Program-made: the position numbers and the translations under genes | From: Bolinopsis microptera | Lineage: Eukaryota > Ctenophora > Tentaculata > Lobata > Bolinopsidae | Length of the DNA stretch: 64,000 nucleotides | Assembly (NCBI RefSeq): GCF_026151205.1 | Contig: NC_087077.1 | Location: 13,986,983 to 14,050,982, forward strand | Direction of reading: 5' to 3' | Notes under the pieces: model-generated | Database searches by the model: none | The model's input: the letters and a program-made list of their open reading frames with translations, nothing else | Told to the model about the DNA's origin: nothing | Part shown: positions 180 through 56,594 of the stretch, piece by piece | How positions within the stretch are numbered: the stretch's first letter is position 1 | Layout of the letters: the number at the start of each line of letters is the position of its first letter

Positions 180-302
180 CTGATATTTTCTCATGAGTAT
201 GGGGTGGGGTACGGGAAGTAGGCCGACTAGTGTGCCGTTCTGGAGGAATGTTATTATCTCACTCTCGTCCGTTAGGTTCTTATCTATACAGATCTTCTCC
301 AC
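180..302 (-). CDS. HID1: HID1 exon 17 (penultimate)
   Basis: Forty-one codons, phase 0 to 0, including VEKICIDKNLTDESEI and TLVGLLPVPHPILMRKYQ. Its donor CAG|GTAC is the first unit of the 12-bp minisatellite filling bases 1-179. Human HID1 has about 40 further residues. Confidence 0.93.
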
Positions 303-3300: not shown

Positions 3301-6300
3301 ACATACCCACAATTTTGGCCAGGATCAATATTTTGAGGTAAAGAGCATCTGATGGCAAAATTTGACATCATGTCATAAGTTATGTCACATTTTGTGTCGG
3401 ATGATACGATTTGAGATCAGTATTCCATCATCATGGGATATGAGCCGATCAAATTGAATAGTTAACGAATATATGACATCTAACTTAGGACTGCAAATAC
3501 ATTATCTTTCGCCGCGATTTTGCCTACTTTGGCTTGTCCTGGCGCCGCGATTTTTGACCTAAATAAGCGCGATTTTCTTTTGTCCTTGCAGTCCTATATC
3601 ATAATTCATAATATATGTAATTAACCCATAATGTTTAAGCAACATATAAATGTCACCCTATTCTATAAAATATAATTCACCCATTCTTTAGAGGGTTGCC
3701 ACTCGTCATTACTGAACATTTGTTGTTCAGCCTCCTGGTCTGTTCGCTTCCTGCTAGGTTTGGAAACTGTGGTCGGATCCTCTGGGAGGTTGCTCAGTTG
3801 GTGGAACACGTGCCTTTTACGTATTATGCTGTACATCAGGTGAGCGTTTCCTGGGAGAGGTGTTTTTTTTGTTAGGATTTTAGGGGTTAGGGAAGGGGAG
3901 TGCACTTTGGATTTTATTTGATTTTATTAGACCTGATCAATTTTTCTTCTTTATTTAGAAAGTAAAAACGCTTTACCATGATATTTGGATTGACATAAGA
4001 GGGACACAAGAGAACATACACGTTTTTTGTCAAATTATGTATCTACTACATTTTCTTTTAAAATTTAAACGTCCCATTCTTGATGTCATATCAATTTAAA
4101 CTGTCTACGGCAAATTATTTCGACGGTTATTTACCTCTTAAACCATTTACGACTAAGACCGTGAGGACTGATAAATACCAATATAAATAAAAATTTAACA
4201 GCATAATATCTGATCTTTTTTTATAGTATTTGAGTTCCACCGTTATTTGATTGCAACACAATCCTCCCCATAACACATAATAGTCTATTTGTGTCCTGCA
4301 TTGTGAATACATCCTTTCACAATACTCAAAGGTGTTGTGTTGCAGACACCATCTAATATCCATCTCAACAGTAACCTGGAAACAAAATACTAAGATTTGC
4401 TCGATCCCACAAGTCCATTTCGCAGTACCTCAGGTGACGAGACATTTTCCCAAGCATTTACAAGCGACACAGCCACCGTCTCATTATTAACAATACCCTC
4501 CTCATTTTCACTAAACCTTGATTTATTGTCCACAGGGGCCACTGTCGCAAAACCAGCGAGGATGGTATCAAGATGGCTAAAACAACTGGCAATACTGGCG
4601 AACAGACTGGCAGTAGTTCGGAGACAAGGCCTGGTTATCTTCTCCTCGACACACTTCCGGAAACTGGTGATGGATGCCTTGTAGATGAAGAAGTTGACAG
4701 CCGAGTTGAGCAGGGTCAAGAGACAGGAGATAAGGTAGAAGTAGTTGTACATAAAACTAGAGACGGGGGACTGACTGTCGTCATACTCCACCAGCATTCT
4801 TCTCTGATCTGTTCCGTTGTTCATCGTCGGAGAGGGCAGTTCAAACCGACTGTCACTTACAATAAACACATTGTACACAAAGGACACCGAAAAGGGAAAG
4901 TGTGACAGGTAATGGGCGATGGCGATTGTGATGGCAGTAACTATACTTTGAATTTGAAGAGAGTTCCTGTTGTGTATTTTAGCCTGTTCGTGCGCTATGT
5001 AAAGCAGCCAGGCAGTTGAGATCATAATCAGAACCCCGGGTATCCCCATACTGAAGACGATAGCCACCAATCTGAACCATCTCAGACTCTCAGACTTCGT
5101 CACGAACATGCAGCTCCTAATGCGGTGGTCAAAGTAGATGGTATCCCCGTTAAACCCCATGGAGATGAAGACAGTTAGAACGGACAAGGCCCAGGGGAGG
5201 CTAGCCACAAAGTGAGCAAACCTTCCTCTCCATACCTGACACCTTAACGGAAACTGGACAATAACCAACTTGCAGAGATTTAGAACACAGACCAACAGTA
5301 GACTGGAAGTGATAAACAGTCCCAAGGCACAGCACGATACCATACAAAGCAGATCCACAGATCCACTGTCACCCATCAGAGTGAATACCAACATGGGCCC
5401 GATCCCAAACACTGCCAGGCACAAGTCCGACACCGTGATGTGGCTGATGAGGGTTGTTGTGACCCGACCCAGTCTGATAGCCTGGTGTTTGGTGATGGCT
5501 ATCATGATAACGATGTTGCCGAGGAGGGAGGCGACCAGCATGGTGCATCTCCAGGTGAAGACGAGAAAGGTTCTCACGGTACACCAGTCTCCGAACAGGG
5601 TCCGGTTGTTCTCCGGTAACATCAGTCTGTGAACTTAGTGTTCGTGTGTTATTTATATAGTCACTTACTTCCGACATTCAACGTAAAAAGCTCAAAAACT
5701 ATAAATTCAATTAATCGGCAACATCTCTATAATGTAAATGCATATTATCATGACTGTATAGTGTATAGTACAAATTTCTAACAGACGAGTGGTTTCATTG
5801 CTATGGTTTTGGCATGAGGTACTCATAGCAAAATCAAATCATGCCCCACTTTATGTTTAACAAGATGGTACCCCAAAGATAGCTCTTGTATTTCTAATAG
5901 AGACGGGATTTAATATGGGACGGTTCTTTGACGTACTTCAATCTTCAACAACGATTAGGCTGACGGGACGAACAATTGCATCGTAATATTCCTTATACCG
6001 GATAGAGACTTAACTACTTGTAGTTGTGGAACCAAATTTATAACACAGATCCACATTACATTCACGAAACTTATTTGTAAGGATTAAGCAGGTTATAGGA
6101 ATTATAACGGTAGAAGAGATACTAAAAACTGGGTAAACCTATTTTATCTGGAACATAACTCATGCAATGACTTTATACGATATTTTAATGCTACACGCTC
6201 CGCTAAGATACTACTGAGTTGCAAATTTTATATCGAGTCGAGCAATCAAAATTTAACAAAATTACTAACGATATACCTCACCAGATTATAATATCAAGAA

Positions 6301-7078
6301 GTTTACTCAACAATTTGCGTCGCAACGCAGAATACGATGCTACGTGCTGAGCAATTTAATGAGCAATTTAAATGAAATCTGGACCAGGCGAGAGTCGTTC
6401 ACATTAATTTCATTCACAGTTATGTGGTTTAATTTAACTATAAAACACGCTGAGTTATATAATTATAGTCGTCTAGGGGAGGGTTGAGTTGTTAGCATAT
6501 TAAACAGCGAAAGGATTTAATACGATGACATCTTTGACCACAATTACGGTAATGTACTTTATTCACAGCGACAAAAAGTCATAGAACGTTTTAATTGTCA
6601 GAATTTTCGTCAAATCAAAATTTGGCAGGACAGATCTTCTCTAAATATTCTTTAGTTTGTGCCTGACTAGTTTTAGGGTAACCCGGCCCCATAACAAATG
6701 TGGAAGGAGATCCAAGATAGATTTTGAGCTACGTAAAATGGCCAGTTTCGGTAAATCACGATTCAAAATTGTGCGTGCAATAGCATTACACAATACACAT
6801 CGATATTCATTAGTCATTAACCTACGAGACTTCCTACTCCTCAGTCCTCAGCTGAAAACGATTTACACATGTATTTTGAAAGCTCCTGCTGAACAAACAT
6901 TTCGTATCTTTAAACAAACGGCCCCTCTAGGTCCTACTCCTCATAGTCGACAAAATTTGTCCCAATTTATGTGGTTTGTCAGCTGTCGCTAGAACACTAT
7001 CATTTCCATTAATCCGAAAGATATCCTTCCCCTAGTAGTGAAAGAGCAACGGCTCAATCTTAAACAATAATCTCAGAA

Positions 7079-7122
<44 letters not shown>

Positions 7123-7162
7123 GGTCGGTCGGTCTGTCTGTCTGTCTGTCTGTCTGTCTGTA

Positions 7163-7245
<83 letters not shown>

Positions 7246-10200
7246 ATGTCTGTCTGTCTGTATGTATGTCTATTGTCTGTGCGCGTGTAATTTCCGAGCG
7301 GCTTAATCAAGAAAACGGTAAGATTTACGGAACTGGTTTTTTCGGTATAGTGCCGAGAATCTTCTGACAAAGCCAAATGATAAAGGTTTTTTTAAATCGG
7401 TCGTTGGTTTAATTGATGGTTTTGTACCACAAATGTGACATAACATGGATCACGTTTTCTCCCTCCTCGCTCTCTGAATAGGCAGCGTTGGTACATAAAT
7501 CATTGCAGAGTAAAAACAATAGAAAGAGCACCTTTGATCTAGGCGAGATACTGGCCGAGGCGGGGTTTGATTAGTTTTAAGAAGGAAAGTCTTTTTAAAA
7601 TTATTTGTCAGTGCAGTGGTTACTATTACTAAACGATATTTTAATGTTACACGTTCCGATAAGATATCACTGAGTTGAAAATTACCTAAAGTTTAGGAGT
7701 CAAATTTAATGTATAAAACTTTCTTAGATTCAGTATTAAATTGAAGTTAAATTGTAGCTGAAGTTGCCGAGTTGTAAATTATAATAGTGTTAAAATTTGT
7801 AAGTGAAAATTAGGCATTACCCGGAAAAGGAGTCTAAGATAAGGAGAAAATGATTACATAACATTGTTCATGAACTAATTTGCGTTGCAAACTGTTTTTA
7901 TCAAAAGTAGGTACTTTTGTAAAATTCAAGCGTACTCCATTTTACCAGTTTATAAGAATTTCACATGAAACGAATAGAACTTAAATCACGAATCTAAATT
8001 GAAATAGCACTACACATATTACACGCTGACCTCCACAGACCCACAATTTGGGCAGGATGAATATTTGTTGGTAAAGACTTAGAGGTATCGAGCATCTGCA
8101 CTGGTAGATCTCTTTAGAAAATGTGATAATTTCCGTGATCCACCAAATCGTAACTCCCGGCCCCCTTAAAGGCAAACCTCAATTAGGTTGATATAGTCCA
8201 ACTGTGAATTATTTTATTTGGGCGATTTTCTTAAAGAAGGAGGTGCGATTCGAAATCAATTTTTTCATATAGAATTTGAGACAGTATATTGATTAGTGAA
8301 TGCTGAATAGTAGTAAAACGCCTCCGATTAGAAAGAAATATTGCAGGATTTGAAAGGATTGCTCGAAGGATTAAACGTGTCAGAAAGGTTGATTTAATAA
8401 GACCTGTTATCGCAATTTTTATTTTCAACTTGAATTCAGTTAGGGTTCTTTGTATAATTTGGTTCTTTATATAATTATTTTCGCACTAGGTACTGAGTAT
8501 AAGCTCCACTAATAGTAGAAGTGTTGTGAACACCGCTGATAATTGCTATTTTTGCCCTATTTTTTGTTCAATAGTCGTCAAAATATTCCGATCATATTTA
8601 TAAGTTGTTATTTATAAAATTTCGATTGTCGAACGTGTTTAGATCTTTTGACAGTGCAAATATTTGTTAATGCTACTTTATTATAAGTTTGTAAGAAATG
8701 AGAAATATTAATTTATAACAACTTCCCATTGAGTCAATGTTCGGAATCAAACTGTATTAATTAATCTTTAGTGTAACAATTGTACATCAAAATAGGTATG
8801 TACCATTCAACTCTGAGCTATAATTATTGAAAATTTCTAACATTTGACTCAGAATCAATTTCACGTTAGTGCTGATGTTTTGATGCAGTATGAATCATGC
8901 AATAGGGTCACTGTTATTCCATTTCAGATAATCATTCAAAGAACTCAAACCCTTGGCGATTTAATGATTAGTTTAGACAAGTTATGCTAATTCTAACAAT
9001 TTCCACATGTGTGAGCATGACACAGTTTTTCATTGTAGAACATGATGTTGCTTCAAGAGCACGAAGGTTCAACCGTATTAGACTCTTAGTAGCCATTTAA
9101 ACATGAGCATTAGAATTAGGATAAAACACATGAAATTTAGACATTTGACAGCTGTTACAGTGTTTCACTGAATCAGAGTCTCAACCCTGTTAGCGTAATG
9201 AAAAAACAAACAATTTAAAATTACGAAAACCGAACCCAACTTCTAGTATAACCTAGAACTCTCGTATATACCCTAATTCTATCGTCCCCTAAGTTCAGCT
9301 CTGAATCAATTGCATTTAATTTCCATCTTTGAGCATAATAAAATCCATTGATCACAAAACCCTCAGACAATATATAGTTATTGTGATTACATAACTGTCC
9401 ACTATCAATTAAGGAATACTGTTTCAACCAGACCTATCCTGACCAATCTGCATTAAGAGGTAATTGATTTAATCAAACCTTATTCTGGTCAGAACTCCAA
9501 TTGTAATTATTTATTTTAAACTCCAGCCAAAGATCCAAATGTCTTGCATTCGCCATATATCAGGTAATGGTTTCATTCTAGGTTGAATGGTCCACAAATT
9601 TCTGAAGCAATAGTAAAAAATGACATGTGTCTCCAACTTGACCATAACGTTATAGCGAAAAATTGGATTTTTGGCTTTGCAGATATGTGAAAATTCACAT
9701 AATATTATACATGATATTTTGGGCAGGGGCGGTACTAGAAGCCTTTCCGTGGGTGCAATATTCTCGCAAAACCACATTTATGTACAATTTATGATGCAAT
9801 ATAAGCCCTGAAATGCTCATATTCAGTATCTAGACTATCGGAACGGACGGATTCGGCTGTGGTTAAGATTTTTAAATTATCAGTTCACAATAATTCGCAT
9901 CCTTGCCAAGGTTCGGATATAAATGGGATGGTAAACACCACTGTCTCAAAATACGTCTTTATTTCAGATCTGAGCTCTGGAGTGAGGGAAAAACGATCAG
10001 CTGGTTACGGTTTTGGGGGAGGCTACGATTTCGGTTGGAAGAGGTCCCTCACTGACTTTGATGGATTTAACTTTAATCTATCCGATATCGAGGTAACAGA
10101 AATTAAAACAGCAGAAATCACCACTTCTTCTATACTAGAGTTCCAGTTCCACCACTATATCCAAATCAGATTAATAATGCAAATTCTCTACTATACCTTA

Positions 10201-13200
10201 TCTCTAGGATATTACCCTTGTAATACATATCTACAATCCGCAGCTGCTGCAAGACGTAGCGGAGAAGCTGGTAGACGGTGAGCAAGTAATGACAGAGCAC
10301 GTCGACAGTGCAGAACACTGGAAGCTGTGGAGAAAGATGGTGAAGCACGGTATGGAAGAGTCAGGATACTATGACCTGGCCGTGTTCATGTTCTGTATGC
10401 TCAACTAGACCGGAACTCTGTGGTTTGATCTGATGATGGGACTCGGACATTGTTGTAAACTGTTGTAAACTGCTGTAAGCTGCTGTAAACTTTACCGATT
10501 CGTTTTTGTAAACTAACTTTGACCCCTGTTTAAGATTTCGGGGATATTCGCTTGATGCTTGAACTTTTTTTTATTTTGGTCTTAAATGTGCAAATGCAAA
10601 AATTATTTAATTTATGAACTTATTTCACTTGTTTGATTCCAAATGGGGCAAATTTGCCTGAAATGTATATGACCTAAAAGTCCTAACAAATACTTGAGAC
10701 GGAAAAATTCGTATTGTTTATTAAATTTTACGATAATGATCTTTGACTAATGTCCATTGTCCAGACTCTCTGAGCAGCAAAATATTATATTATTTAATTA
10801 ACATGTCCCTACTATTATAGGAATATCATGTTGATAACTCTGATTTTCCTGATCGGATCTGCAAGTGCAGGTAATGAATTCTAGTCGCCGAATTATGTCA
10901 GTCAGAATTAGTCCATTGTAAATTTATATTTATTTTAACTATGCAAACACCAAAGTTCATCGCATAATGGTTATGTTTCAGTTCCTACCCGACAAGAATG
11001 CCCCAGAATCCTGGAGACAGCCGGAGTATCCGAAACCTTCGCACAGATGGTAGCCCATAGCATCCATTCTTTGACTTTAGAAGACATCCGATACTTCTTC
11101 AAGGAGAATGCTACGGAAGAAAACGGCATTCCAACCGGTTAGTTGCAGCCACTGCTTAAGATGCTGAGCTATTGGAATGTAAATTCTTAAAGTCATTTTT
11201 ATTAATTGTAGGATTCATAGAATGACAACAGGAGACAATATAACTATAAGAATATAACTATAAGATTATAATGAACTATTTCAGTGAACACGGATTTGGC
11301 GACTGACATCAGAGTTCTCCCTAACGCACCGTTAGCTGGGTATGATGACGACTTTTCAACAAGGAGCATGAAAACCTTTGACTTGGTGAGTTTGATATTA
11401 AATAATCTACGGCAGATCCCGTAACCCTAAACTTATCTATTGTATTGATTAATAGTGTCGTGCTCTGCGGGGATATATTACCCGTACCACAAATAAGAAC
11501 TGACCGGTCGGTCCCTATCTACAAGTTATGCCCCTCATTCCACGAATCAGACTCGTTTGCGATATATTACCAATTATTGTGCAGGTGATGAGGAACATGA
11601 ACCGAACTTGGTGGGGTATCACGAACTACGACACCCTCGACAAGCTGACCCATGCCTTCCACATGGCTGAGATCTGGGACAAGACCGCCGAGCAGTATAC
11701 AATGGTAGAGAAACTGCTAGACCCACAGTCTGACCTATGCGACTGTGTGACCGACATTGAAGACAACGATGTGCTGAACTACCTGAATCTTCTGGCTTTC
11801 AAGATCAAGTACCCTGGTATTACTTCTGGCAACAAGACTCTCACAGATAATTGTAAGTGTTATAGTGACTCATGCACCAAATCTGTCCAGCCCAAATGAC
11901 TTCACAGCTAGTTCAGTGACCATCTTGCGCACCATTTTCAGACCAAACCAAATGTTTTTGAGAACATCTAATATTCATAATTGCAGATTTTTCTAAAATT
12001 TCGATAGGAATGTGTTAGGATCTTTTGGACAAGTGCAAAATATTTGTAACTAGCACATTTATATATAATTTGTGAAGAAACTGAGAAACATGTACCTTAA
12101 AATACTTCCCATAACGTTATAGCGAAAAATTGGATTTTTGGCTTTGCAGATAATGTGAAAATTCACATAATATTATACATGATATTTTGGGCAGGGGCGG
12201 TACTAGAAGCCTTTCCGTGGGTGCAATATTCTCGCAAAACCACATTTATGTACAATTTATGATGCAATATAAGCCCTGAAATGCTCATATTCAGTATCTA
12301 GACTATCGGAACGGACGGATTCGGCTGTGGTTAAGATTTTTAAATTATCAGTTCACAATAATTCGCATCCTTGCCAAGGTTCGGATATAAATGGGATGGT
12401 AAACACCACTGTCTCAAAATACGTCTTTATTTCAGATCTGAGCTCTGGAGTGAGGGAAAAACGATCAGCTGGTTACGGTTTTGGGGGAGGCTACGATTTC
12501 GGTTGGAAGAGGTCCCTCACTGACTTTGATGGATTTAACTTTAATCTATCCGATATCGAGGTAACAGAAATTAAAACAGCAGAAATCACCACTTCTTCTA
12601 TACTAGAGTTCCAGTTCCACCACTATATCCAAATCAGATTAATAATGCAAATTCTCTACTATACCTTATCTCTAGGATATTACCCTTGTAATACATATCT
12701 ACAATCCGCAGCTGCTGCAAGACGTAGCGGAGAAGCTGGTAGACGGTGAGCAAGTAATGACAGAGCACGTCGACAGTGCAGAACACTGGAAGCTGTGGAG
12801 AAAGATGGTGAAGCACGGTATGGAAGAGTCAGGATACTATGACCTGGCCGTGTTCATGTTCTGTATGCTCAACTAGACCGGAACTCTGTGGTTTGATCTG
12901 ATGATGGGACTCGGACATTGTTGTAAACTGTTGTAAACTGCTGTAAGCTGCTGTAAACTTTACCGATTCGTTTTTGTAAACTAACTTTGACCCCTGTTTA
13001 AGATTTCGGGGATATTCGCTTGATGCTTGAACTTTTTTTTATTTTGGTCTTAAATGTGCAAATGCAAAAATTATTTAATTTATGAACTTATTTCACTTGT
13101 TTGATTCCAAATGGGGCAAATTTGCCTGAAATGTATATGACCTAAAAGTCCTAACAAATACTTGAGACGGAAAAATTCGTATTGTTTATTAAATTTTACG

Positions 13201-46200: not shown

Positions 46201-49200
46201 TTTTCATTCTTATCTAGGAATTTTCTTTAAATATCGAACTTAAATCAAGTAAGATCCGAGAATATGGAGTAGCAAAGTAGGAGACTCTCAGGACTGATCC
46301 TCGGTAACGTTACGACCTAGTTGTGTTTTCTGCTTCACGTATAAAGCCAGGTCGGTCTGGTATAATTTGAATTTGATTGGAACCGTGTTTGGTGAAGATC
46401 TGTTCAGATCTAAGATAGGCGGGGAAGCTCGGTCGCTTTTTCCATTTTATACATATGCCGAGCCCTCTTCTTAATTCTCTGGGACCTTCACCACGTTTCA
46501 TAAAAATTGACGCGAGGAAATGTATTTAATCATTTAATGCTAACTTTAACTACTTTATATTTATATTTTGGATTGCTTTTCTGATATTTGATTTGATATC
46601 TTTATGGCCGATAGTGACTTTATAACCAAACTGAGACAAAACTATTGCATCTGGGAACGTGATCTCAGAACACACATTATTTGTTAAGAACGTGAGTACG
46701 TCCCCGCACATGTGATTATATGTCCTGATTAATGAGTCAGATGTTCAGCTGCACGGTGTTGACTTCCACAGTTACTTTATAACAGTGTGTCCGGGCACCT
46801 GGACAGGTCCTCCTCACTTTTTGTCATTTGTAGTGAAAATAGGTTTAACGATTTCTGGCGAATATTATTGGGTTAGTACACTACTCTTTGAGTGCATTTT
46901 GCCAACAATTTATTTCTGGTACTCCCAACTTACGTGTCACGGGAGTGGCGAGCTTAGTCGAACTAATTCATTACCGGCCACTAAGTTCGTGTTTATAGTT
47001 CAACATAGTACTTGTTTTATTGAGAACACATCATTACATCAGTGTTATCGCTCTTTCCTTAGTATATTTTTGTCTTGTTATTGAGACATGAATGACTGAC
47101 ACTGATGACTTTTCGTTTGTGTTCTAACTTTTAGTTCGATGACCGGCTCTGAACACCAAAGACCAGGTTTGATTCCGTTTCTTTGTCCTAAGTTTATCAA
47201 ATTCACACTAAGCGATCCTTCTGCTTATATAATTCTTGGTATCTGTTATTTTAGAATTTCAAACTCAAAGTTCAACATGCAAATTACTAGACGCTACCCT
47301 TTTTTAAGTCAACAAAAGGAAAACATCAGACCTAGAAAGTTGAGATAATTGTGTTCAGGTAGCAGAGACAAAGGAGGACAAGGCAGGAAGCTAAATGTAC
47401 TGAACTCGGTTAGTGAGAGGGTTGCTCGAGGGAGGAATGATAAACTAGAAGAGGATCTCATCAGTACTTACGCAGCACTCGAACACAATAAAGGTACCTA
47501 CTACATAATATATAGTATATAATTATTAGTTTATAATTCTATAGTATATAATATTCTATATAATTCTATCGTTAGTTATCGTCGTATCTTATCGGTTTTA
47601 GATTTGTAATGCAGGGTCGAGCAAAGATGGCCGTCCCTCGTCCTCAGGGGCGTGCGCAGGGGAAGGCGATGCGCCCCCGCCCCTGCTCGTCCTCAATCAC
47701 GTCCACTGATATGTTCAGGGAGAAAGAAGCAGCTGCTGTCACAAGAACAGTTCAAACTGAGGAAGCTGATGTCGGTAAGGCTGTGTCCAGTGAGTGTTAT
47801 CAACACAGCAAGGCACGAGCTTCACAGTCAAGGTAGTCATATTAGAGAGATATCTATGAGGTTATCTTTGTTAGCCCTTTGGTTTTCTAGCACATTGAGA
47901 AATTTTAGTTTAAACTTTCAAACTACAAATACATAGATTCACTTACGACGTCTATCATGATATTGGTTGGGGAAGTGGGAACTTTAATGTACCGGAAAAA
48001 AGGTCGATATGGTATGAAAAGTTAAGGGCATTACTTCTATAAAATGTGTATTACTATTTGTAGCAACCCAAACTCTAACTTTCACTGCAGATCTTCTAGG
48101 TTTTAGTCCCCGAGCACCAGACTCTATTAAGACTACCAAACAAATACGAGACTTCTACAGGAAACAGCTTCATAGACAGGTGCTTTTAATTCTTATAAAT
48201 TTGATGACAATTTGGGATAAATATTTGTTTCAAAAAATTGAGATAACCGTCATCTCTGAACTTCTCTTTTGATTAGGGAATATGAATTATGGAGTAATAT
48301 CCGAACAGCTATTTATCTTATTGCATTGAAACTTGTATTTTGTCTGCATATAACTAATCTTATCTTCCCTCACTCACAAAACCTCACAGTTATCACCAGA
48401 CGTGAACCTGCGGTATCCCGAGGAGCTATTTGAACGTCACCTCCACAAACCGTGCCGTTTTGTGAGACCCAACATTCTGCCCGATATTGTACCGACCATA
48501 TACAAGGTATTCAGTTACTATTTACATGTAACATTGTAACCAATCAAAGTAGAAGAATTTATCGCGTTGTCAACTTATTTCATGATCATTGTCAACTTAT
48601 TCTATAATCACTGATTGCTCGGCGAATATAAGAATTCTCGGTATTTCAGAAGCCGGCCCAGCCGAACAAGCTGCTCCCCTGGTGCCCCGAGAACTACCTG
48701 CCACATTCCGTTACTGAGAGTGATCACCGAGAATCAGAAACAGAGTCCAATCATACAGCTGATAACGCTGATCAATCCGAACTTATGGGACCGTCTTCCA
48801 AACATCGCACAACAAACAAAAACTCTGTAAAAAAGCGAGAGTTCGTTAGGAAAGACTCTTTTGGGCCTTGCAAAGCGTTTAAAAAGTACGCGAACCCAAC
48901 GCCTAAGATAGTTCAGTACTGCACTCAAAAATTTGCAAATACTTGGGAACCAAAGGAAAAACAAATTAAAGGTAAGACAAACAATCCGGCTAACAAAACA
49001 GTGCACAAAAAGTTGGGACCGTTGAACTCTGTAACGGATAAAATTGACAAGGATCTACAGGAGCGAATGAAGTACTTTTTAGTCAGATTACGATGATGCA
49101 GTCTATTGAGAGATAGGGAGATAATCTTAGCAGGTTGTTACTACAAAATATCTCTAGGTATTCACTGCCCCTTCACGGTTTGAAGTGGCAAACTGAAACA

Positions 49201-52200: not shown

Positions 52201-55200
52201 CGGTATAAGCCTTGTCAGTAATCGTACACAATTTAACACTGAAACAGTTTTGATGGAATACAATGATAAGGACAAACTATTACCAATCAAAATGATGATG
52301 AATCAACTTCTGTTTACTTAATTAAAGTAATAATTATGCAGAAGCAATTAAGTGAGCGAAATTACCGATAGCTTGTTCTGATAAACTCATGCTTGGACCA
52401 GCAATTACAGAACTGTCCAACTTCTCCACAGCCTGATGGGGATAATCACGCGTTACAAAGCCTTAATATTATGTTAAAATGAGAGTTGTATTCGGATACC
52501 AGTTTAGAAATGAATATTCGGGTTGTTTTAACACATTCTCAATCGTAACCAGACAAGACTACAAAACACGTAGATTGGCTGCACAGTATGCATCTGCAAG
52601 CTGTTTGGTTAACTAGTTTTGTTTTCCTTAGTGCTGACGCTACTTGATATAAGTCCACTCCCTTCAATATTATGGTTTTATCGTGGTCACGTGCCAAAAC
52701 AAACTCACATCACCTCCCCACCAGTAACCAACTTTATAATTACCTTGTAAATAAGCGTCATGAAGTTGGCGGGAGATTCTTCGCGTAGGGTGTGGATATC
52801 ATCAGCAGTAACGAGAGCGAATATATCGCTGATGTTGTTCACAGTTCCACTCCAGAACTGATCCCAGAACGCATCATCTGATGTATCTATTGTTTGCTGG
52901 AATGTGAAGAATTTGGAGACGGGATTATAGATGCACACCAAATAAAATTCAATCGAAATGTACCCGAAGTTAAGGGGAGATACACCAAAAACGTTTTTGC
53001 TCCGAACATCGATTTTATTTTATATTATGGTTAAATAGACAAAAAGAATAAGATTGCACACCTTCAAAATTTTCTAAAAATACTCCCTCATCGAGAAAAA
53101 AAAATTTTTCTTTTTCGACAATTTTTAAAATTTGGAGAAGTCTGTCAATGTAATACCGATAGTTCGGCCATTTTAAAAGTTTTTTGGCTGATTTTTTTAC
53201 TGAACATTACTTACATTCCGTACAAGACAACCCTTTAAAGCATTATATAATTGAACAATAAATGACCAAGTTACAGACCGAACAAGGTGAAAAAAGAAAA
53301 ATTGGGATTTTTGCCTACCACCAAAGTTGTACATTTTACCACTCGCCCAGGTCATCAGATATCGCTTTAAAAATTCTTGTGAGTGTAGCCGATGATCATA
53401 TCAAACTTTTTGGAACAGGATTTCTCTCAGTTTTGAGTTTTAAGGTATGAAATGTGGCCTCAAACGACTTAGTAAAATTCATCGTAAAAAAGGGCCAAAC
53501 ATGGCAGATTTAAGGCTTAAAATGCCTATAACTCAAAAAAGTATAATTTTTTTTGAAATAATTTTTACAGAATCGTAATCAGCTTGAGAAAACGAATCTT
53601 TTAGTACCAAATAGGTGATTTTACAAGACAAATTGTCTTAAATAATTTTCCAGCTCGAACACAACCTTGTATAAAACACCTTGTATAAATTTTGTACAAA
53701 TTGTACACATTTTTTTACAAATTTTGTGTCTTTAACTATTATAAATTTGATACTAAAAGATTTGTCTTACCAAGCTGATTACGATCCTGTAAAAATTATT
53801 TCAAAAAACCTAATACTTTTTGAGTTACGGGTATATGGCCCCCAGAATATAGGTCGTTTTTTGAGCACTTAGAAACAGGTGTTAAAACTACTTCTAAGCA
53901 TGTTTAGGGCTGTAAATATGTACATAATAACCCTTTAAATGTTTCTTGGGTAGTTGAAAATAATTATTAGGTTTTTAAGTGTACTTTTTTTTCACCTGTA
54001 AAAATACCATTTTTTAACAGGGCCCCCAGAATATAGGTCCAAACATCTGTTCCTAAGTTGTTCTAAAATTGTCACAGACAGTTATATGCAGTCAGAATAT
54101 GTTGCTGAGACTGTATTGATGATGCCAATGGCTCCAGATACTAAATTGAAATGGTTTAGAGTATACTTAATAGCAAAAAATCAAAAACTACGGCCCCCAG
54201 AATATAGGTATGCAAAAATCGTCCTCAAATACTCCACCTTCATACATTTTGAAGATGCCATCTCTTCAGCATATGTTCTTTAACTGTTTCTCATCACTAC
54301 CCCACATTCCTTAATGCTCAGGGTGACAGAGAAAATGCAGAATCTTGGTCGCTATTTTTTTTTAAACCTATATTCTGGGGGCCATATACCCGTAATGAGT
54401 AAAATCTTTAATTTTACTAGTTAAAAAGCATTCATGCACTCATTTAGTAGGGATCTTAACTAAATACTTAAATAAGATTGAAGGAGTGTCCCTAGATATG
54501 ATTGAGGGGGCTGTTTTTATCTGTATCAATACAATGTGCACCTCAATGACTGTAAATCAGACATTTTTGGCCGCCAAATTTTTTTAAAGGCCTAACTCAA
54601 AATTCTGTCCCAAAACTTAGGGTCATGAGACAATTCTACGTTGATTCTGAAAATTTCATGTGAAAATATTGAAAACCTATTGAGTTCTATTGTTTTGAGC
54701 TAAGTCAGTTTGAGATATGGGCGATTTTGTTCATTTTTTGCGATTATTTGAACACAGAATCCACAGTTAGGTAGATATTGAGCTGATAATCATAGAGAAT
54801 GTGTAATATATGCTTACCTTCCATATAAAGTTGGTTTCATTCAAAAATATTGATATTTGACCAATTTATGGACCAAAATCGATCAAATTAGGTGCGTATG
54901 CCCAAATATGGGCATATGGTTTTTGTTTTTATCCCATAACTCGGCCAATTTTTATCCAATTTTGATAAAACTTGATATGTGGGTTCAGGAGACTAGTAGC
55001 TACAAGTAGAGCATCCCACAGCATGGTTTTGGGCATGTTCAGGGTTTTTGACCAACCTATATTCTGGGGGTCGTATGGACCTATATTCTGGGGGCCCGTA
55101 AAATTGTGATGGCCATAACTTTTTTCCAAATTGTCAGTTTGAAGATGTCTCGATGAAAAGATAGCTTAAAATAATACTTATACTCATACCAGTAGTCTTA

Positions 55201-56594
55201 ATGGCATGTGTTGGACAGATTTTTGTCATGACAATTTTTCGCCATATTTACCCCTCTAGAAAATGACAACATCGTTTAAATTTTTCGCTGTCATGACCAA
55301 ATATACCAAAATACCTCATGTAGGTCCAAAATTTTTATCCAGAAACATTAGTTACATGTTTTACTCCAACCTAGCAGTAACAGATCCCATTAGTATCGCT
55401 TATCTTGGTTAGAACTGTATCCACTAACATGACCTATATTTTGGGGGCCACCTATATTCTGGGGGCCATATACCCGTATAGGCATTTTAAGCCTTAAATC
55501 TGCCATGTTTGGCCCTTTTTTACGATAAATTTTACTAAGTCGTTAAGGCCACATTTCACACCTTAAAACTCAAGACTGAGAGAAATCCTGTTCCAAAAAG
55601 TTTGATCTGATCATCAGCTACACTCACAAGAATTTTTAAAGCGATATCTGATGACCTGGGCGAGTGGTAAAATGTACAACTTTGGTGGTAGGCAAAAATC
55701 CCAATTTTTCTTTTTTCACCTTGTTCGGTCTGTAACTTGGTCATTTATTGTTCAATTATATAATGCTTTAAAGGGTTGTCTTGTACGGAGTGTAAGTAAT
55801 GTTCAGTAAAAAAAATCAGCCAAAAAACTTTTGAAATGGCCGAACTATCGGTATTACAGTGACAGACTTCTCCAAATTTTAAAAATTTTCGAAAAAGAAA
55901 AATATATTTTTTCTCGATGAGGGAGTATTTTTAGAAAATTTTGAAGGTGTGCAATCTTATTCTTTTTGTCTATTTAACCATAATATAAAATAAAATCGAT
56001 GTTCGGAGCAAAAACGGTTTTGGTGTATCTCCCCTTAATGTATGAGGAGAATAGTATTTATTGGCTTAACATCAAGTTTACGTGTAATCAAAACATTTAG
56101 ACCAACAACGTTACTCCCAATAAATACTACAATACTATAAATAACGAAACAAGGTAAGTGTACATTTCCCTGGATCACGCTACACATACATCTACAACTT
56201 ACATTTACAAAAGTAGACTTGGTCCTGAGATTTTTAACTAGATTGAATAACCTGTTGTGGTGGCTTGAATAAACCGTGAATTCTGTAATATGTACGACAA
56301 TTCACGACAATATCAAATTTCAACCCAGATAACAAACCAAGCGGCACGAGAATCACAAACTTTCTTACTCGTATTAAAGTCGTGTACTTGGGGTAAGAAG
56401 TAAGGACATTTATTCTAAACTAATAAACCGTTATCATTCTCAGTAAATATAAAAGGAATGTTACATGCTGCGCATTCAAATTTAACTTGAATATTCGAGA
56501 CAGAACAATATTTCTGAATGTAACTTACGTTAGTTCGTCCAGTTAAGTTGACGATGGCCCGTCGGAAACCGACTTTACTCTCCGTACCTCCCAT
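180..56594 (-). CDS. HID1: HID1 (hid-1 homologue), 17 coding exons, 3' end beyond window
   Basis: HID1 is a peripheral Golgi/trans-Golgi protein needed for dense-core vesicle and neuropeptide sorting. I rebuilt 17 exons on the minus strand: 56529-56594, 52744-52896, 52366-52432, 52072-52238, 51507-51560, 51209-51395, 50903-51072, 50533-50712, 50234-50317, 49332-49422, 45004-45155, 44701-44779, 44077-44138, 29618-29720, 3681-3850, 640-708, 180-302. All have GT-AG junctions and matching phases, summing to 1977 nt (659 codons) with no stop. The protein begins MGGTESK, keeping the Gly2 N-myristoylation context of human HID1, and shows strongly conserved blocks (DDAFWDQFW, DLLFCPDFT, SRIHREEDF, LLLLSGERNFGVRLNK, IFNNIIQYQFDGN, SIIRKR.FHQL, LVGLLPVPHPIL). 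The final exon of about 40 residues must lie left of base 1. Introns 10, 13 and 14 host other genes; intron 1 hosts a 3-kb transposon. Identification is from remembered human HID1, not a search. Confidence 0.95.
575..643. repeat. 34-bp tandem repeat abutting the HID1 exon 16 donor
   Basis: Two full copies and one partial copy of a 34-bp unit, on the minus strand starting CCAAGT and containing CTTAGTAAC twice. The first copy includes the last four exonic bases and the donor itself. Confidence 0.85.
640..708 (-). CDS. HID1: HID1 exon 16
   Basis: Twenty-three codons, phase 0 to 0, encoding VASWRKKLPLQTIMRLLQ then VLVPQ. The donor CCAA|GTAAGT is the first copy of a 34-bp tandem repeat that continues into the intron. 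Confidence 0.93.
1268..2487. repeat. Foldback element with about 300-bp imperfect inverted arms
   Basis: The left arm (about 1268-1570) is inverted as the right arm (about 1797-2487): for example ggtctctcaaacttgaagtc at 1532 pairs with gacttcaagtttgagagacc near 1819, and tttgctcgcgtcctcatgaac pairs with the sequence near 2400. The right arm is longer because a 26-bp tandem array has expanded inside it. No transposase reading frame is present. Confidence 0.8.
1880..2212. repeat. 26-bp tandem array
   Basis: About 12-13 copies of a 26-bp unit made of cttgacagccag and ctagatgacagc(c/a)g. The left arm of the surrounding foldback has only one copy of the unit, so the array expanded after the foldback formed. 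Confidence 0.93.
2836..3345. repeat. Dispersed repeat, copy A
   Basis: About 500 bp that recur in the same orientation at 7536-8110, sharing gatactggcc, taggcattacccggaaaa and caattt.ggc blocks. Copies diverge by substitutions and small indels. The family could not be named. Confidence 0.75.
3681..3850 (-). CDS. HID1: HID1 exon 15
   Basis: A 170-nt exon, phase 1 to 0, starting GNAHLMYSIIRKRHVFHQL, then a variable basic linker, and ending NDEWQPSKEW. It joins exon 14 through the conserved DGN triplet. The long poly-T acceptor tract lies at 3851-3880. Confidence 0.94.
4390..5622 (-). CDS. Class A (rhodopsin-like) G protein-coupled receptor, single exon
   Basis: An intronless 410-residue receptor with seven hydrophobic segments, nested in HID1 intron 14 on the same strand. 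TM1 carries the GN of the class A motif (LLGNIVIMIAI), TM2 has the conserved Asp (HITVSDLCLAVF), and TM7 reads LLNSAVNFFIY, a variant of NPxxY with Phe in place of Pro that is common in invertebrate orphan and peptide-like receptors. The E/DRY motif after TM3 is absent: the equivalent stretch is LNLCKLVIVQFPLR. The N-terminus is short with one NRT glycosylation site; the C-terminal tail of about 85 residues is Ser/Cys-rich. The ligand cannot be inferred. The start MLPENN is the first Met of the frame and leaves a suitable extracellular N-terminus. Confidence 0.85.
   Translation of the reverse strand: MLPENNRTLFGDWCTVRTFLVFTWRCTMLVASLLGNIVIMIAITKHQAIRLGRVTTTLISHITVSDLCLAVFGIGPMLVFTLMGDSGSVDLLCMVSCCALGLFITSSLLLVCVLNLCKLVIVQFPLRCQVWRGRFAHFVASLPWALSVLTVFISMGFNGDTIYFDHRIRSCMFVTKSESLRWFRLVAIVFSMGIPGVLIMISTAWLLYIAHEQAKIHNRNSLQIQSIVTAITIAIAHYLSHFPFSVSFVYNVFIVSDSRFELPSPTMNNGTDQRRMLVEYDDSQSPVSSFMYNYFYLISCLLTLLNSAVNFFIYKASITSFRKCVEEKITRPCLRTTASLFASIASCFSHLDTILAGFATVAPVDNKSRFSENEEGIVNNETVAVSLVNAWENVSSPEVLRNGLVGSSKS
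5640..7060. other. HID1 intron 14, right of the GPCR gene
   Basis: AT-rich intronic sequence and probable GPCR upstream region. Short pieces resemble the dispersed repeat (near 6179 and 6755). I see no supported gene; a 111-codon frame near 6657 has no recognisable feature. Confidence 0.6.
7079..7275. repeat. (TCTG)n microsatellite
   Basis: About 49 copies of tctg with a few tcgg and tatg variants. Open frames on both strands here are artefacts of the repeat. Confidence 0.98.
7536..8110. repeat. Dispersed repeat, copy B
   Basis: Direct-orientation copy of 2836-3345, beginning gatactggccgaggc and containing the taggcattacccggaaaa block. It lies in HID1 intron 14, copy A in intron 15. Confidence 0.75.
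8111..9658. other. HID1 intron 14, left flank of the tandem array
   Basis: No gene recognised. Bases 8600-8735 look like a diverged version of the start of intron 4 of the tandem gene (compare 11990-12115), suggesting an old unit fragment split by later sequence. Confidence 0.5.
9968..10408 (+). pseudogene. Array unit 0: exons 5-6 only
   Basis: Exon 5 (9968-10092) and exon 6 (10244-10408) are intact and identical in reading to later copies, but exons 1-4 are missing upstream. It is the left breakpoint of the array, so it is a gene fragment unless an unseen upstream exon uses it. Confidence 0.8.
10828..12876 (+). CDS. Unrecognised secreted protein, array copy 1
   Basis: Exons 10828-10870, 10982-11137, 11285-11385, 11585-11852, 12436-12560 and 12712-12876 join in phase to 858 nt (285 residues). 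Residues 1-14 (MLITLIFLIGSASA) are a signal peptide. The mature part has a helical Cys-bearing N-terminal region (QECPRILETAG), an acidic middle, a Trp/Asn-rich exon 4 (RNMNRTWWGITNYD, then CDC), a Gly/Tyr/Phe-rich stretch flanked by REKR (196-199) and KR (214-215), and a charged C-terminal helix ending FMFCMLN. NRT and NKT are possible glycosylation sites. The dibasic sites suggest proprotein cleavage, but neither peptide ends in an amidation Gly. I recognise no family. Copy-specific changes: Ala to Ser in the signal peptide, Thr to Ala in exon 2. Confidence 0.8.
13302..15641 (+). CDS. Unrecognised secreted protein, array copy 2
   Basis: Exons 13302-13344, 13456-13611, 13732-13832, 14031-14298, 15201-15325 and 15477-15641; same 285-residue layout as copy 1, with GAASA in the signal peptide. 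Intron 4 carries a 319-bp direct duplication (first repeat from about 14586, second from 14905) that copies the exon 5 acceptor and 19 bases of exon 5, leaving a decoy exon start at 14882. Confidence 0.8.
16067..18552 (+). CDS. Unrecognised secreted protein, array copy 3
   Basis: Exons 16067-16109, 16221-16376, 16497-16597, 16796-17063, 18112-18236 and 18388-18552. The reading frame is intact. Intron 4 has the 319-bp duplication and, only in this copy, a 146-bp dispersed repeat inserted at 17872-18017, which explains the 2911-bp period. Confidence 0.8.
17872..18017. mobile_element. 146-bp dispersed repeat inserted in array copy 3
   Basis: Present only in this unit, splitting gattttt|aaattatcag. 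It is about 85-90% identical to 50092-50232 and contains cgccatcacggatcgggaaa and agcggccgc. No clear target duplication or tRNA-type A/B boxes are visible, so class (SINE or MITE) is open. Confidence 0.75.
18978..21317 (+). CDS. Unrecognised secreted protein, array copy 4
   Basis: Exons 18978-19020, 19132-19287, 19408-19508, 19707-19974, 20877-21001 and 21153-21317. The frame is intact and the 319-bp intron 4 duplication is present. Coding sequence appears identical to copies 2 and 3. Confidence 0.8.
21743..23763 (+). CDS. Unrecognised secreted protein, array copy 5
   Basis: Exons 21743-21785, 21897-22052, 22173-22273, 22472-22739, 23323-23447 and 23599-23763. The intron 4 duplication is absent. 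One coding change lies in the dibasic-flanked peptide (GYGFGGG to GYSFGGG). Confidence 0.8.
24179..26190 (+). CDS. Array copy 6, altered C-terminus
   Basis: Exons 24179-24221, 24333-24488, 24609-24709, 24908-25175, 25759-25883 and 26035-26190. Exons 1-5 are intact (Asp to Asn in GGGYNFGW). In exon 6 a 7-bp insertion (attgtag) shifts the frame and a 36-bp deletion between acta repeats removes the usual end, so about 28 C-terminal residues are replaced before a new stop at 26188. Likely a decaying copy, but it could still give a 282-residue protein. Confidence 0.7.
26586..27594 (+). pseudogene. Array copy 7, exon 4 deleted, stop in exon 2
   Basis: Exon 1 (26586-26628) is intact. Exon 2 (from 26740) has a 12-bp deletion and a CGA-to-TGA change, so the frame stops after SIHQDA. 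A deletion joins the middle of exon 3 (from 27004) directly to late intron 4; that junction reads open straight into exon 5 (ending 27278). Exon 6 (27430-27594) is the intact form. Confidence 0.85.
28010..29009 (+). pseudogene. Array copy 8, exon 4 deleted, stop in exon 2
   Basis: Same lesions as copy 7 (exon 1 28010-28052, exon 2 from 28164 with TGA, fused exon 3/5 from 28428 to 28702), but exon 6 (28854-29009) is the frameshifted, shortened form seen in copy 6. The mosaic of lesions shows exchange between units. Confidence 0.85.
29010..29617. other. Degenerate right end of the tandem array
   Basis: Two diverged direct copies (29155-29225 and 29330-29400) of the sequence following exon 6, sharing gatgaggtctagttttctta and ttcgcttgatgct. 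No coding content. HID1 exon 14 follows. Confidence 0.7.
29618..29720 (-). CDS. HID1: HID1 exon 14
   Basis: A 103-nt exon, phase 0 to 1, encoding AFSTPWFLFANHTNYHLVF then FLLEIFNNIIQYQFD. It is followed by the 25.8-kb intron 14 carrying the GPCR gene and the tandem gene array. Confidence 0.94.
29721..32399. other. HID1 intron 13, proximal part
   Basis: No gene recognised on either strand. Contains a short 9-10-bp minisatellite (ccaggttac/ccaggttt) at 31082-31131. Confidence 0.6.
32400..32835. repeat. 22-bp minisatellite, left block
   Basis: About 20 copies of gtgtagctccgtagttaccgga with c/a variation. An identical-type array of the same length follows the retrotransposon at 36507-36942. Confidence 0.96.
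34013..36307. mobile_element. Non-autonomous TIR element, copy A (poly-G ends, 6-bp TSD)
   Basis: Flanked by the 6-bp duplication ATTAAA (34007-34012, 36308-36313) inside a retrotransposon reading frame. Ends are inverted: poly-G, then TGTCA(C/T)GTCCGTCTATGT. Inside lie a 20-bp subterminal array (cggacattgg units, 34100-34260), 1.7 kb of purine-rich sequence, and a second array of atgtccgcct units. No transposase frame is present. A second copy lies at 59781-62636. Confidence 0.92.
34267..35990. repeat. Polypurine tract, copy A
   Basis: About 1.7 kb built from ggaggaggactgaggagg-like units with only scattered pyrimidines. Open frames rich in Ser/Pro or Glu/Arg here are composition artefacts. 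Confidence 0.95.
36507..36942. repeat. 22-bp minisatellite, right block
   Basis: About 20 copies of the same 22-bp unit as 32400-32835. The retrotransposon therefore sits within, or between two halves of, one array. It is joined to the left side by aaccaaagt repeats that probably form the LINE tail. Confidence 0.95.
38366..38455. repeat. 14-bp minisatellite (ttatcagttaccag)
   Basis: Alternating ttatcag and ttaccag heptamers for about 90 bp. Confidence 0.95.
38712..38930. repeat. Minisatellite of 14- and 23-bp units
   Basis: Repeated ttaaccttaccata, some copies extended by ttatttatt. About 13 copies, shortly upstream of the dehydratase-like gene. Confidence 0.95.
39247..43581 (+). CDS. PLP-dependent serine/threonine dehydratase-like protein, divergent
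   Basis: Nine exons: 39247-39373, 39601-39779, 39992-40132, 40269-40388, 40565-40715, 42655-42755, 42916-43129, 43271-43388, 43479-43581. They join in phase to 1254 nt (417 residues). The fold-type II signature is clear: the PLP lysine (Lys119) in FQKSGSYKIRG, later VIAGYGTLG, a FERLKIVVDENAAACVAAL helix, and the C-terminal TGGN (391-394). Two cofactor-binding motifs are altered: SSGNHGQA is replaced by TSGAGEFAEA (about 154-163), and the Gly-rich phosphate loop is AGDGTL (258-263). No ACT domain is seen. It is either a pseudoenzyme or has changed chemistry; serine racemase, threonine dehydratase and serine dehydratase are all possible relatives. The first coding exon is low-complexity, so the start is the least certain part. 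The gene lies inside HID1 intron 13, and its intron 5 contains a cathepsin gene. Confidence 0.85.
40967..42217 (-). CDS. Cathepsin-like cysteine protease (C1A) with C-terminal ShKT domain
   Basis: A single-exon 416-residue secreted protease on the minus strand, within intron 5 of the dehydratase-like gene. Residues 1-22 are a signal peptide; about 30-100 form an I29-type inhibitory propeptide; a short TPDD/TLDD repeat (113-128) precedes the mature enzyme at about 130. Catalytic residues are present: Gln148 and Cys154 in NQDGCGACWTFG, His293 in NHAVAAVAY, and Asn309 in KNSWGGDWG. The Ser that normally follows CG is Ala. After an acidic region and a Pro/Thr-rich linker (363-383) comes a six-Cys ShKT module (Cys387, 394, 399, 409, 413, 416). 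The ShKT addition is frequent in cnidarian and nematode proteases. Substrate is unknown. Confidence 0.93.
   Translation of the reverse strand: MELFLTMLSLILITSLLGPALACSDDKPSPSQRFQNFLKQSGNKYVSTKERVLRYKIFSQNLAVIKDLNSQNLGYTTTTNKFAVMTTQEIELYHGVNKTRENQLHPVSNHDNTPDDNTPDDVTLDDVTALPDSVSWIDSGHVTSVKNQDGCGACWTFGPTVAIEGAYKTLTGKLKQFSNQELLDCVYDAHTYNACHGGVESRAIQFVMSRKRLGMWRDYPYEPVDKRCRSAGKPDGLIGAKVTGFSRNDGSEAGTISRLSQGPLSVAFHAVLSVHFYESGIYRSDKCNGAANHAVAAVAYSPHYILIKNSWGGDWGDQGLFKFARENYACGIHLPDNNFMVQMEPTGEADDDKEDEALVYERQPTVRPPTVPMPTVSAPTTSSGDVCRDRIESCLTYFCGFYPNYKTDCKKTCGHC
43429..43452. repeat. Poly-C run in an intron of the dehydratase-like gene
   Basis: About 22 consecutive C bases between exons 8 and 9, close to the exon 9 acceptor. 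Its true length may be uncertain in the assembly. Confidence 0.9.
43594..43640. promoter_or_regulatory. Cluster of three CRE-like sites
   Basis: CGACGTCA (43594), TGACGTCA (43613) and TGACGTCA (43633) lie just after the dehydratase-like stop codon. Further perfect sites occur at 40221 and, inside exon 4, at 40279. Binding by CREB/ATF-type factors is inference from the motif only. Confidence 0.4.
43641..44076. other. HID1 intron 13, distal end
   Basis: AT-rich sequence between the dehydratase-like gene and HID1 exon 13. Nothing recognised. Confidence 0.6.
44077..44138 (-). CDS. HID1: HID1 exon 13
   Basis: A 62-nt exon, phase 1 to 0, encoding ISPYLKQMCMVSSSKLMHLL then E. It aligns with SPYLKSL...KLLHLLE of human HID1. 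The 14.4-kb intron 13 that follows holds a retrotransposon and two genes. Confidence 0.88.
44139..44700. other. HID1 intron 12
   Basis: AT-rich intron. An (ATTAA)n run at about 44640-44683 lies immediately inside the exon 12 donor. No other feature. Confidence 0.7.
44701..44779 (-). CDS. HID1: HID1 exon 12
   Basis: A 79-nt exon, phase 0 to 1, encoding VFHKIITCGHHRLQPLFDC and ILTIIVN. The donor is GTAAGT, with an (ATTAA)n run starting about 17 bp into the intron. Confidence 0.9.
45004..45155 (-). CDS. HID1: HID1 exon 11
   Basis: A 152-nt exon, phase 1 to 0, containing GLMHVGVFILLLLSGERNF and VRLNKLYLTRVPMDLPIFTG, the most conserved core of the family. The donor GTGGGT is followed by imperfect repeats of about 9 bp. 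Confidence 0.94.
45156..46603. other. HID1 intron 10, downstream part
   Basis: No gene recognised. It holds a small perfect palindrome (45416-45442, 12-bp arms around gta) and a long perfect hairpin (45587-45668). Confidence 0.6.
45587..45668. repeat. Perfect 38-bp hairpin
   Basis: Arms 45587-45624 and 45631-45668 are perfect reverse complements separated by tggccc. A transcript would fold into a 38-bp stem with a 6-nt loop. It could be a microRNA-type precursor, a tiny foldback element or a recent inverted duplication. Confidence 0.95.
46604..49096 (+). pseudogene. Unrecognised six-exon gene, exon 3 frameshifted by a transposon insertion
   Basis: Exons: 46604-46658 (tentative first exon, MADSDFITKLRQ), 47359-47493, 47615-47774, 48091-48179, 48390-48506, 48650-49096. 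Without a 49-bp insertion in exon 3 they join in phase to 954 nt (317 residues). The predicted protein is basic and soluble, without signal peptide or membrane segment: TYAALEHNK, then TKQIRDFYRKQLHRQ, a Pro-rich conserved-looking block (LSPDVNLRYPEELFERHLHK, FVRPNILPDIVPTIYK, LLPWCPENYLPHS) and a Lys-rich tail. I do not recognise the family. It lies in HID1 intron 10 on the opposite strand. Exon 3 carries a 41-bp hAT-like element plus 8-bp duplication, shifting the frame to a stop soon after; this may be an allele, a true pseudogene, or avoided by splicing. Confidence 0.7.
47645..47685. mobile_element. 41-bp hAT-like micro-element with 8-bp TSD
   Basis: Starts CAGGGGCG and ends CGCCCCTG (perfect 8-bp TIR), flanked by the exact 8-bp duplication ctcgtcct (47637-47644, 47686-47693). 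CAGGGGCG-type ends with 8-bp duplications are the hallmark of hAT transposons. The element is GC-rich and far too small to encode anything. Confidence 0.88.
49332..49422 (-). CDS. HID1: HID1 exon 10
   Basis: A 91-nt exon, phase 0 to 1, encoding KFLFYVLKTSDVLDVLVPIL and then YYLTESRNDP. The donor is GTTAGT. The following intron of about 4.2 kb contains an opposite-strand gene. Confidence 0.91.
49423..50233. other. HID1 intron 9
   Basis: Contains a GC-rich run of cgtgcga/cgtgcg motifs (about 49738-49790) and the dispersed short repeat at 50092-50232. No gene recognised. Confidence 0.65.
50092..50232. mobile_element. Dispersed short repeat (second copy)
   Basis: Homologous to the 146-bp insertion at 17872-18017, from tgtcactccgccatat to gcggccgcatttcttgtt. 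Its end abuts the HID1 exon 9 splice donor. Confidence 0.75.
50234..50317 (-). CDS. HID1: HID1 exon 9
   Basis: Twenty-eight codons, phase 0 to 0, encoding TYLPNSCKKIGFHEE and LLVLFWKMCDYNK. The donor GTAAAC is followed at once by a dispersed short repeat occupying the start of intron 9. Confidence 0.92.
50533..50712 (-). CDS. HID1: HID1 exon 8
   Basis: Sixty codons, phase 0 to 0, including AQVLMVILDHESAS and FLSRIHREEDFHFIL and ending NNPLLQ. The linker between these blocks is shorter than in human HID1. Confidence 0.93.
50903..51072 (-). CDS. HID1: HID1 exon 7
   Basis: A 170-nt exon, phase 1 to 0, including SIENKHALPLFTSLLN and YGLPYQHVMFSDHREQLVE. Both splice sites are canonical. Confidence 0.92.
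51209..51395 (-). CDS. HID1: HID1 exon 6
   Basis: A 187-nt exon, phase 0 to 1, including IWEKGVGFAYS and RTEILKLLLTCFSETMY. A second in-frame acceptor exists 21 nt inside the exon (before GACACG), so the first seven residues could be alternatively spliced. Confidence 0.91.
51507..51560 (-). CDS. HID1: HID1 exon 5
   Basis: Eighteen codons, phase 0 to 0, encoding DLLFCPDFTIVAPATVGP. The acceptor has a good pyrimidine tract ending TTCAG and the donor is GTAAGT. Confidence 0.92.
51657..51731. repeat. Imperfect 30-bp hairpin in HID1 intron 4
   Basis: gttggtgattttattctg... pairs with ...agaataaaatccccaac around a 15-nt loop, with a few mismatches. It is a possible small-RNA precursor or foldback remnant. 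Confidence 0.8.
52072..52238 (-). CDS. HID1: HID1 exon 4
   Basis: A 167-nt exon, phase 1 to 0, with the blocks LNCVRLLTRLIPFVFE and EEWRSFFWS and ending in LAQILLKKLS. The donor is GTAAGC. Confidence 0.92.
52366..52432 (-). CDS. HID1: HID1 exon 3
   Basis: A 67-nt exon, phase 0 to 1, encoding AVEKLDSSV through SLSEQAI. AVEKL matches the human protein; the rest is a variable linker. It was too short to stand out as an open frame and was placed by homology and phase. Confidence 0.88.
52744..52896 (-). CDS. HID1: HID1 exon 2
   Basis: Fifty-one codons, phase 0 to 0, running from QTIDTSDDAFWDQFW to REESPANFMTLIYK. The acceptor follows TTCCAG and the donor is GTAATT. DDAFWDQFW is the signature N-terminal block of the family. 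Confidence 0.93.
52970..56038. mobile_element. 3.07-kb TIR element bounded by TTAA, in HID1 intron 1
   Basis: Begins TTAAGGGGAGATACACC and ends with its exact complement. Arms of about 565 bp (52970-53530 and 55474-56038) are nearly identical; the same 62-codon frame appears in both arms, differing at one residue. TTAA at both ends could be the target duplication, as in piggyBac-like elements, although GGGG rather than CCY termini are unusual. The interior has a nested hairpin (53525-53625 against 53737-53829) and eight copies of a 17-bp motif. No transposase frame is present. Confidence 0.9.
53837..55467. repeat. Eight interspersed 17-bp motifs inside the TTAA element
   Basis: CCTATATTCTGGGGGCC occurs at 54367, 55056 (one mismatch), 55080, 55433 (one mismatch) and 55451, and inverted at 53837, 54021 and 54192. 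All inverted copies lie on the left and all direct copies on the right. Confidence 0.92.
56529..56594 (-). CDS. HID1: HID1 exon 1 (start codon)
   Basis: This 22-codon exon starts with ATG at 56594 and encodes MGGTESKVGFRRAIVNLTGR plus two residues. It ends at a strong donor, GTAAGT, in phase 0. Gly2 and Ser6 fit N-myristoylation. The exon sits just downstream of a CCAAT-rich region. Confidence 0.9.

Follow-up and report, generated by a model that had tools for sequence, protein, structure and literature searches.

The HID1 gene and its introns

The window analysed here, a stretch of 64,000 nucleotides from the ctenophore Bolinopsis microptera, is spanned almost entirely by a HID1 gene on the minus strand (180-56594). 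Our model begins with a start codon at 56594 and comprises 17 coding exons with a mean length of 115 bp, which distribute a coding sequence of 1,956 nt (652 residues) over 56,415 bp. The exons are collinear and in phase, and all 16 introns between them have GT-AG boundaries. As the exon edges were chosen by eye for phase and GT-AG, both properties arise partly by construction; what they show is that suitable sites are available wherever the model needs them. A donor site at position 180 terminates exon 17, which implies at least one further exon past the left window edge; the gene is incomplete in the window and its C-terminal end falls outside it.

A Pfam search with the translation returned the Hid1 family (PF12722) at E=4.1e-225, followed by the related family Dymeclin at 8.9e-178. 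The Hid1 profile matches over its full length, in two stretches totalling 750 bits, compared to 593 bits for Dymeclin, which places the protein in the HID1 family. This result is independent of our second line of evidence, a tblastn search of the window with a HID1 protein as probe, which yielded a minus-strand chain of matches from 52.9 kb down to 180. Fourteen of the 17 exons were matched directly at E<=0.01, all of them on the minus strand and in protein order; for exons 1, 3 and 5, which the probe did not match, the positions come from reading the sequence. As a control, the reversed probe gave a single match in the window (E=0.84). In the main alignment block with the probe protein, 375 of 669 aligned columns are identical; the end of this block is misaligned over a linker of variable sequence, and the C-terminal part proper forms a second block with 64 of 101 identities.

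The two longest introns are intron 13 (29721-44076, 14,356 bp) and intron 14 (3851-29617, 25,767 bp). The latter is bordered on the right by exon 14 (29618-29720, minus strand, tblastn E=3.95e-13) and on the left by exon 15 (3681-3850, minus strand, E=5.15e-09). The remaining introns longer than 1 kb are intron 1 (3,632 bp), intron 10 (4,176 bp) and intron 15 (2,972 bp). These data bear out the first-pass annotation in its main claim, that a single HID1 gene covers almost the whole window and harbors other genes in its introns, as well as in its description of 17 short in-phase exons linking 56594 and 180, with an average length given as 116 bp, and of two introns exceeding 14 kb.

Guest genes in introns 13 and 14

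Judged by their coordinates, a tandem gene array and a GPCR-like open reading frame lie wholly inside intron 14, and a racemase-like gene, as far as its supported exons are concerned, lies together with a cathepsin wholly inside intron 13. Counting the five open copies of the array, the window thus contains eight open guests. All guests previously listed for these introns, namely a GPCR, eight tandem gene copies, a dehydratase-like gene and a cathepsin, were found again, the GPCR as GPCR-like only. The proposed total of a dozen was too high, as eight open guests and three broken tandem copies are supported and a further gene in intron 10 is not. To evaluate reading frames, we used a codon score compared over six frames, for which HID1 was the sole training gene, and a chance control in which 11.4 kb of intron sequence was shuffled 200 times; in these shuffles the longest stop-free frame averaged 109 residues and reached a maximum of 186.

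The racemase-like gene (39601-43581, plus strand) has eight supported exons, at 39601-39779, 39992-40132, 40269-40388, 40565-40715, 42655-42755, 42916-43129, 43271-43388 and 43479-43581. All seven introns between them are of the GT-AG type and the frame is open to the stop codon; the start of the gene upstream of 39601, and with it the N-terminal end, is uncertain. Two candidate upstream exons (39247-39377 and 39460-39525) had no in-frame join to the next exon and were dropped. Searches of PDB with the eight-exon protein gave 21 distinct sequences at E<=0.001, the closest being the aspartate racemase 5ybw (E=1.6e-40, residues 27-359 of 374), and Pfam gave PALP at 1.8e-41 for a query that included two doubtful extra exons. 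The protein is thus a serine/aspartate racemase-like member of the fold-type II PLP enzymes, whose domain covers most of it. In the codon score, the frame holding most of its exons ranked first of six. In the alignment of the PLP-contact loops to the racemase, residues encoded in 39992-42755 include the lysine found in the enzyme, whereas the substrate and glycine loops are altered; the protein may be a pseudoenzyme.

The intron of the racemase-like gene at 40716-42654 (1,939 bp) contains an intronless papain-type cathepsin frame on the minus strand (40967-42283), which measures 438 residues from stop to stop and has its first ATG at 42199. Pfam matches to Peptidase_C1 (2.4e-46) and to the I29 propeptide (1.4e-13) assign it to the papain family (C1), and PDB searches found 169 distinct papain-like protease sequences at E<=0.001, with 6u7d as best match (1.3e-48). 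The correct frame ranks first of six in the codon score, and an AATAAA lies 18 nt past the stop. The arrangement is a two-level nest, in which HID1 on the minus strand contains the racemase-like gene on the plus strand, which in turn contains the cathepsin on the minus strand. The first-pass annotation had listed both genes but had missed the place of the cathepsin inside the other. The tail of the cathepsin (40967-41098) has a ShK-like pattern of six cysteines that does not reach the curated threshold (E=0.038; 15 versus 20.9 bits).

Intron 14 is dominated by the tandem array (9642-29116, plus strand), which we delimited by self-comparison and splicing and which comprises eight copies and, at its left end, an orphan pair of last exons. 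The array makes up 75.6% of the intron, which would measure about 6 kb without it. Alignment of the eight copies, all on the plus strand, resolves the unit as a six-exon gene for a predicted secreted protein, the first exon resembling a signal peptide as judged by eye. Copy c1 (10821-12876) encodes 285 residues in exons at 10821-10870, 10982-11137, 11285-11385, 11585-11852, 12436-12560 and 12712-12876; it is open to the usual end, as are c2 (13289-15641), c3 (16054-18552), c4 (18965-21317) and c5 (21730-23763). The other three are broken, such that of the eight gene copies previously described, which are all present, five are open. In c6 (24172-26170) the last exon is shorter and out of frame, and c7 (26579-27594) has an in-frame stop, retains 36 of the 101 nt of exon 3 and lacks exon 4 entirely; c8 (28003-28989) is broken like c7 and additionally has a shorter last exon.

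The copies are nearly identical. Between c2, c3 and c4 there are zero mismatches at 2,486 aligned bases, c3 having 146 extra bases, and self-comparison of the array revealed 5.3-kb stretches that are 99.96% alike. Relative to c2, c1 differs at 8 bases and c6 at 13, and over the shorter part that they share with it, c7 differs at 28 and c8 at 29. Two of the units (14584-15219 and 20260-20895) contain a 319-bp stretch in two copies that are 100% identical. The encoded protein had no family match at cut-off, the nearest being Josephin in Pfam (0.0098, 16.2 versus 26 bits) and porins in PDB (0.2), so that the status of the copies as genes rests on the open spliced frame, the signal-peptide-like start and the codon score, in which the correct frame of c1 ranks first of six.

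The second guest of intron 14 is a single-exon frame of 414 residues, stop to stop, on the minus strand (4390-5634). Comparison to PDB with phmmer showed similarity to class A receptors, with neuropeptide Y receptor Y2 as best match (E=1e-4); the list at E<=10 comprised 56 distinct PDB sequences, of which 11, receptors by name, reached E<=0.001. As the Pfam 7tm profile gave no match, we refer to the frame as GPCR-like only. Its hydropathy profile has eight hydrophobic regions after merging of overlapping windows, versus the expected seven, and its codon score of 0.133, versus 0.136 antisense, is not the highest of the six frames. A single-sequence structure model (408 residues) had a pLDDT of 40.8 and was unusable.

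No AATAAA or ATTAAA was found within 300 nt after the GPCR-like frame, the racemase-like gene or copies c1-c5. Searches of the window for RNA genes gave no Rfam match at gathering score and no tRNA, the latter with the bacterial code.

For intron 10, where an unknown gene had been proposed, we found no support. Its two longest plus-strand frames (46716-47081 and 48632-49093) had no Pfam match, nor had a trimmed version of the second or part of 47576-47833. The longest frame, with 154 residues, is inside the range of the shuffles, which were made with 11.4 kb and thus with more sequence than the 4.2 kb of intron 10. By codon score, the frame at 48632 ranks first of six, weakly (0.061), and for those at 46716 and 47576 the antisense scores better.

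Origin and meaning of the nested arrangement

The HID1 frame continues across both intron 13 and intron 14, and we consider it very probable that this animal HID1 gene is ordinary and intact and that two of its introns became hosts to other genes. Each guest would then have its own promoter and be transcribed independently, and the polymerase transcribing HID1 would read through all of them, the guests being removed with the spliced-out introns. The array would have been born of repeated tandem duplication or unequal crossing-over within intron 14, and its growth may have been tolerated, intron length being presumably under weak constraint; on this account, intron 14 would have reached 25.8 kb because the array arose in it by duplication. 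The near identity of the copies suggests recent tandem duplication or homogenisation, and a repeat-multiplying assembly would look identical; unless the assembly multiplied the repeats, intron 14 thus probably grew recently through tandem duplication.

As to conflict between host and guests, the first-pass annotation expected transcription to collide on opposite strands. This agrees with the orientation of the array and the racemase-like gene but not with that of the GPCR-like frame and the cathepsin, which lie on the strand of HID1. The opposite-strand guests would meet the host polymerase head-on and could reduce HID1 output. For the parallel guests, human genes offer an analogy: exonization and intron retention of hosts were measured for parallel nested genes (PMC3192792). 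Such interference, measured in human and predicted for HID1, is what the parallel guests could bring about instead, with read-through, exonization or premature polyadenylation affecting the host RNA.

An alternative view of the guests is that they are not working genes, but retrocopies (the cathepsin and the GPCR-like frame), relics, or a gene-derived satellite (the array). The first two indeed lack introns, three of the eight tandem copies are broken, and the same introns contain mobile-element sequence. However, the frames of the cathepsin and the GPCR-like sequence far exceed the longest frame in the shuffles and are beyond chance, the racemase-like gene retains seven introns and an open frame, and five tandem copies are open across six exons. 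We regard this explanation as unlikely.

Also unlikely is a bolder reading, in which intron 14 would be an active nursery where an opposite-strand gene for a secreted protein is amplifying now, with copy number and intron length varying between individuals and an antisense load tuning HID1, while a second intron carries the two-level nest. Were this doubtful reading true, splicing of the host would have to handle an intron growing by about 2.5 kb per duplication.

A third possibility is that exons 1-14 and 15-17 were wrongly joined through the repeat array of intron 14. Near-identical repeats of several kilobases, as found here, are where assemblies err, and typically give rise to false joins and false copy numbers; both the number of copies and the very continuity across intron 14 thus depend on the assembly. 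Yet the exons of the two sides fit a single protein in order, strand and phase, the exon 14-15 join sits in a conserved stretch of that protein, and the GC3 of exons 1-14 (0.546) is like that of exons 15-17 (0.542), which is weak evidence for a single gene. It is unlikely that a false join would reconstitute a single gene, and we consider misassembly of HID1 very improbable, whereas the number of copies may quite possibly be wrong.

The notion of two genes, in which the right part would be a shorter HID1 and the left part a HID1-like fragment, might at first sight draw on the unusual contrast between a 25.8-kb intron and a mean exon of 115 bp, but is almost certainly wrong, as the left part corresponds to the last part of the protein only, does not overlap with the right part and has a matching phase.

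Genes within introns are well documented in other animals. In the ctenophore Hormiphora californensis, 2,357 genes are nested within a total of 1,654 hosts, and double nesting accounts for 484 of these genes; many of the nested genes are parallel to their host and about half are flanked by transposable elements on one or both sides (PMC8527503). HID1 resembles these cases in having genes on either strand within single host introns. It differs in that the nested genes of Hormiphora rest on Iso-Seq transcripts, whereas the HID1 guests are known from sequence alone, and in its near-identical tandem array within one intron, a feature that the parts of that study used here do not mention (PMC8527503). 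The glass sponge Aphrocallistes vastus has 2,432 nested genes, with about 12% of genes in introns, and the authors note that a proportion of nested exonic bases of about 10% appears usual throughout the animal phyla (PMC10282587). This sponge also has lineage-specific tandem gene clusters, which the parts of the study used here do not describe within one host intron, and on the scaffold that was compared its introns have a mean length of about 0.5 kb (PMC10282587), as opposed to the 14,356 and 25,767 bp of the two HID1 introns.

With nesting on one and on two levels on record from other animals, the HID1 locus is a real and rich example of a known architecture. What remains of interest is the presence of a near-identical array within a single intron, together with the compact nesting on two levels. 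Giant guest-bearing introns are a feature of this HID1 gene; a search of an open-access library found no paper on HID1 as a host of nested intronic genes, which does not prove their absence. The locus is a clean single-locus case for studying transcription and splicing of a conserved, housekeeping-type gene whose 25.8-kb intron is packed with near-identical genes on the opposite strand, and it poses the question whether the birth of tandem genes within introns determines intron length.

Mobile elements and other sequence in the window

Two related elements (34008-36313 and 59781-62632) have inverted ends of 30-35 nt at 91-97% identity and, as read by eye, 6-base direct repeats at their flanks (ATTAAA and ACTATA, respectively). 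Each is filled with about 1.7-2 kb of a polypurine GAGGAGGACTGAG-like repeat with strong GC skew. They are likely to be non-autonomous DNA transposons. A fragment of a LINE-type reverse transcriptase (32835-34010; Pfam RVT_1, 2.4e-22) is apparently broken by the polypurine element, and arrays of one type of 22-bp unit lie on either side of it (32393-32834 and 36506-36942).

Upstream of HID1, open frames on the plus strand (58185-59695) have weak Pfam matches below cut-off and could represent exons from a gene for a membrane or coiled-coil protein. Finally, intron 1 of HID1 contains an element (52970-56038) with 563-nt inverted ends that are 97.3% identical. It is flanked by TTAA, as in piggyBac-type elements, and stops about 70 bp short of exon 2.
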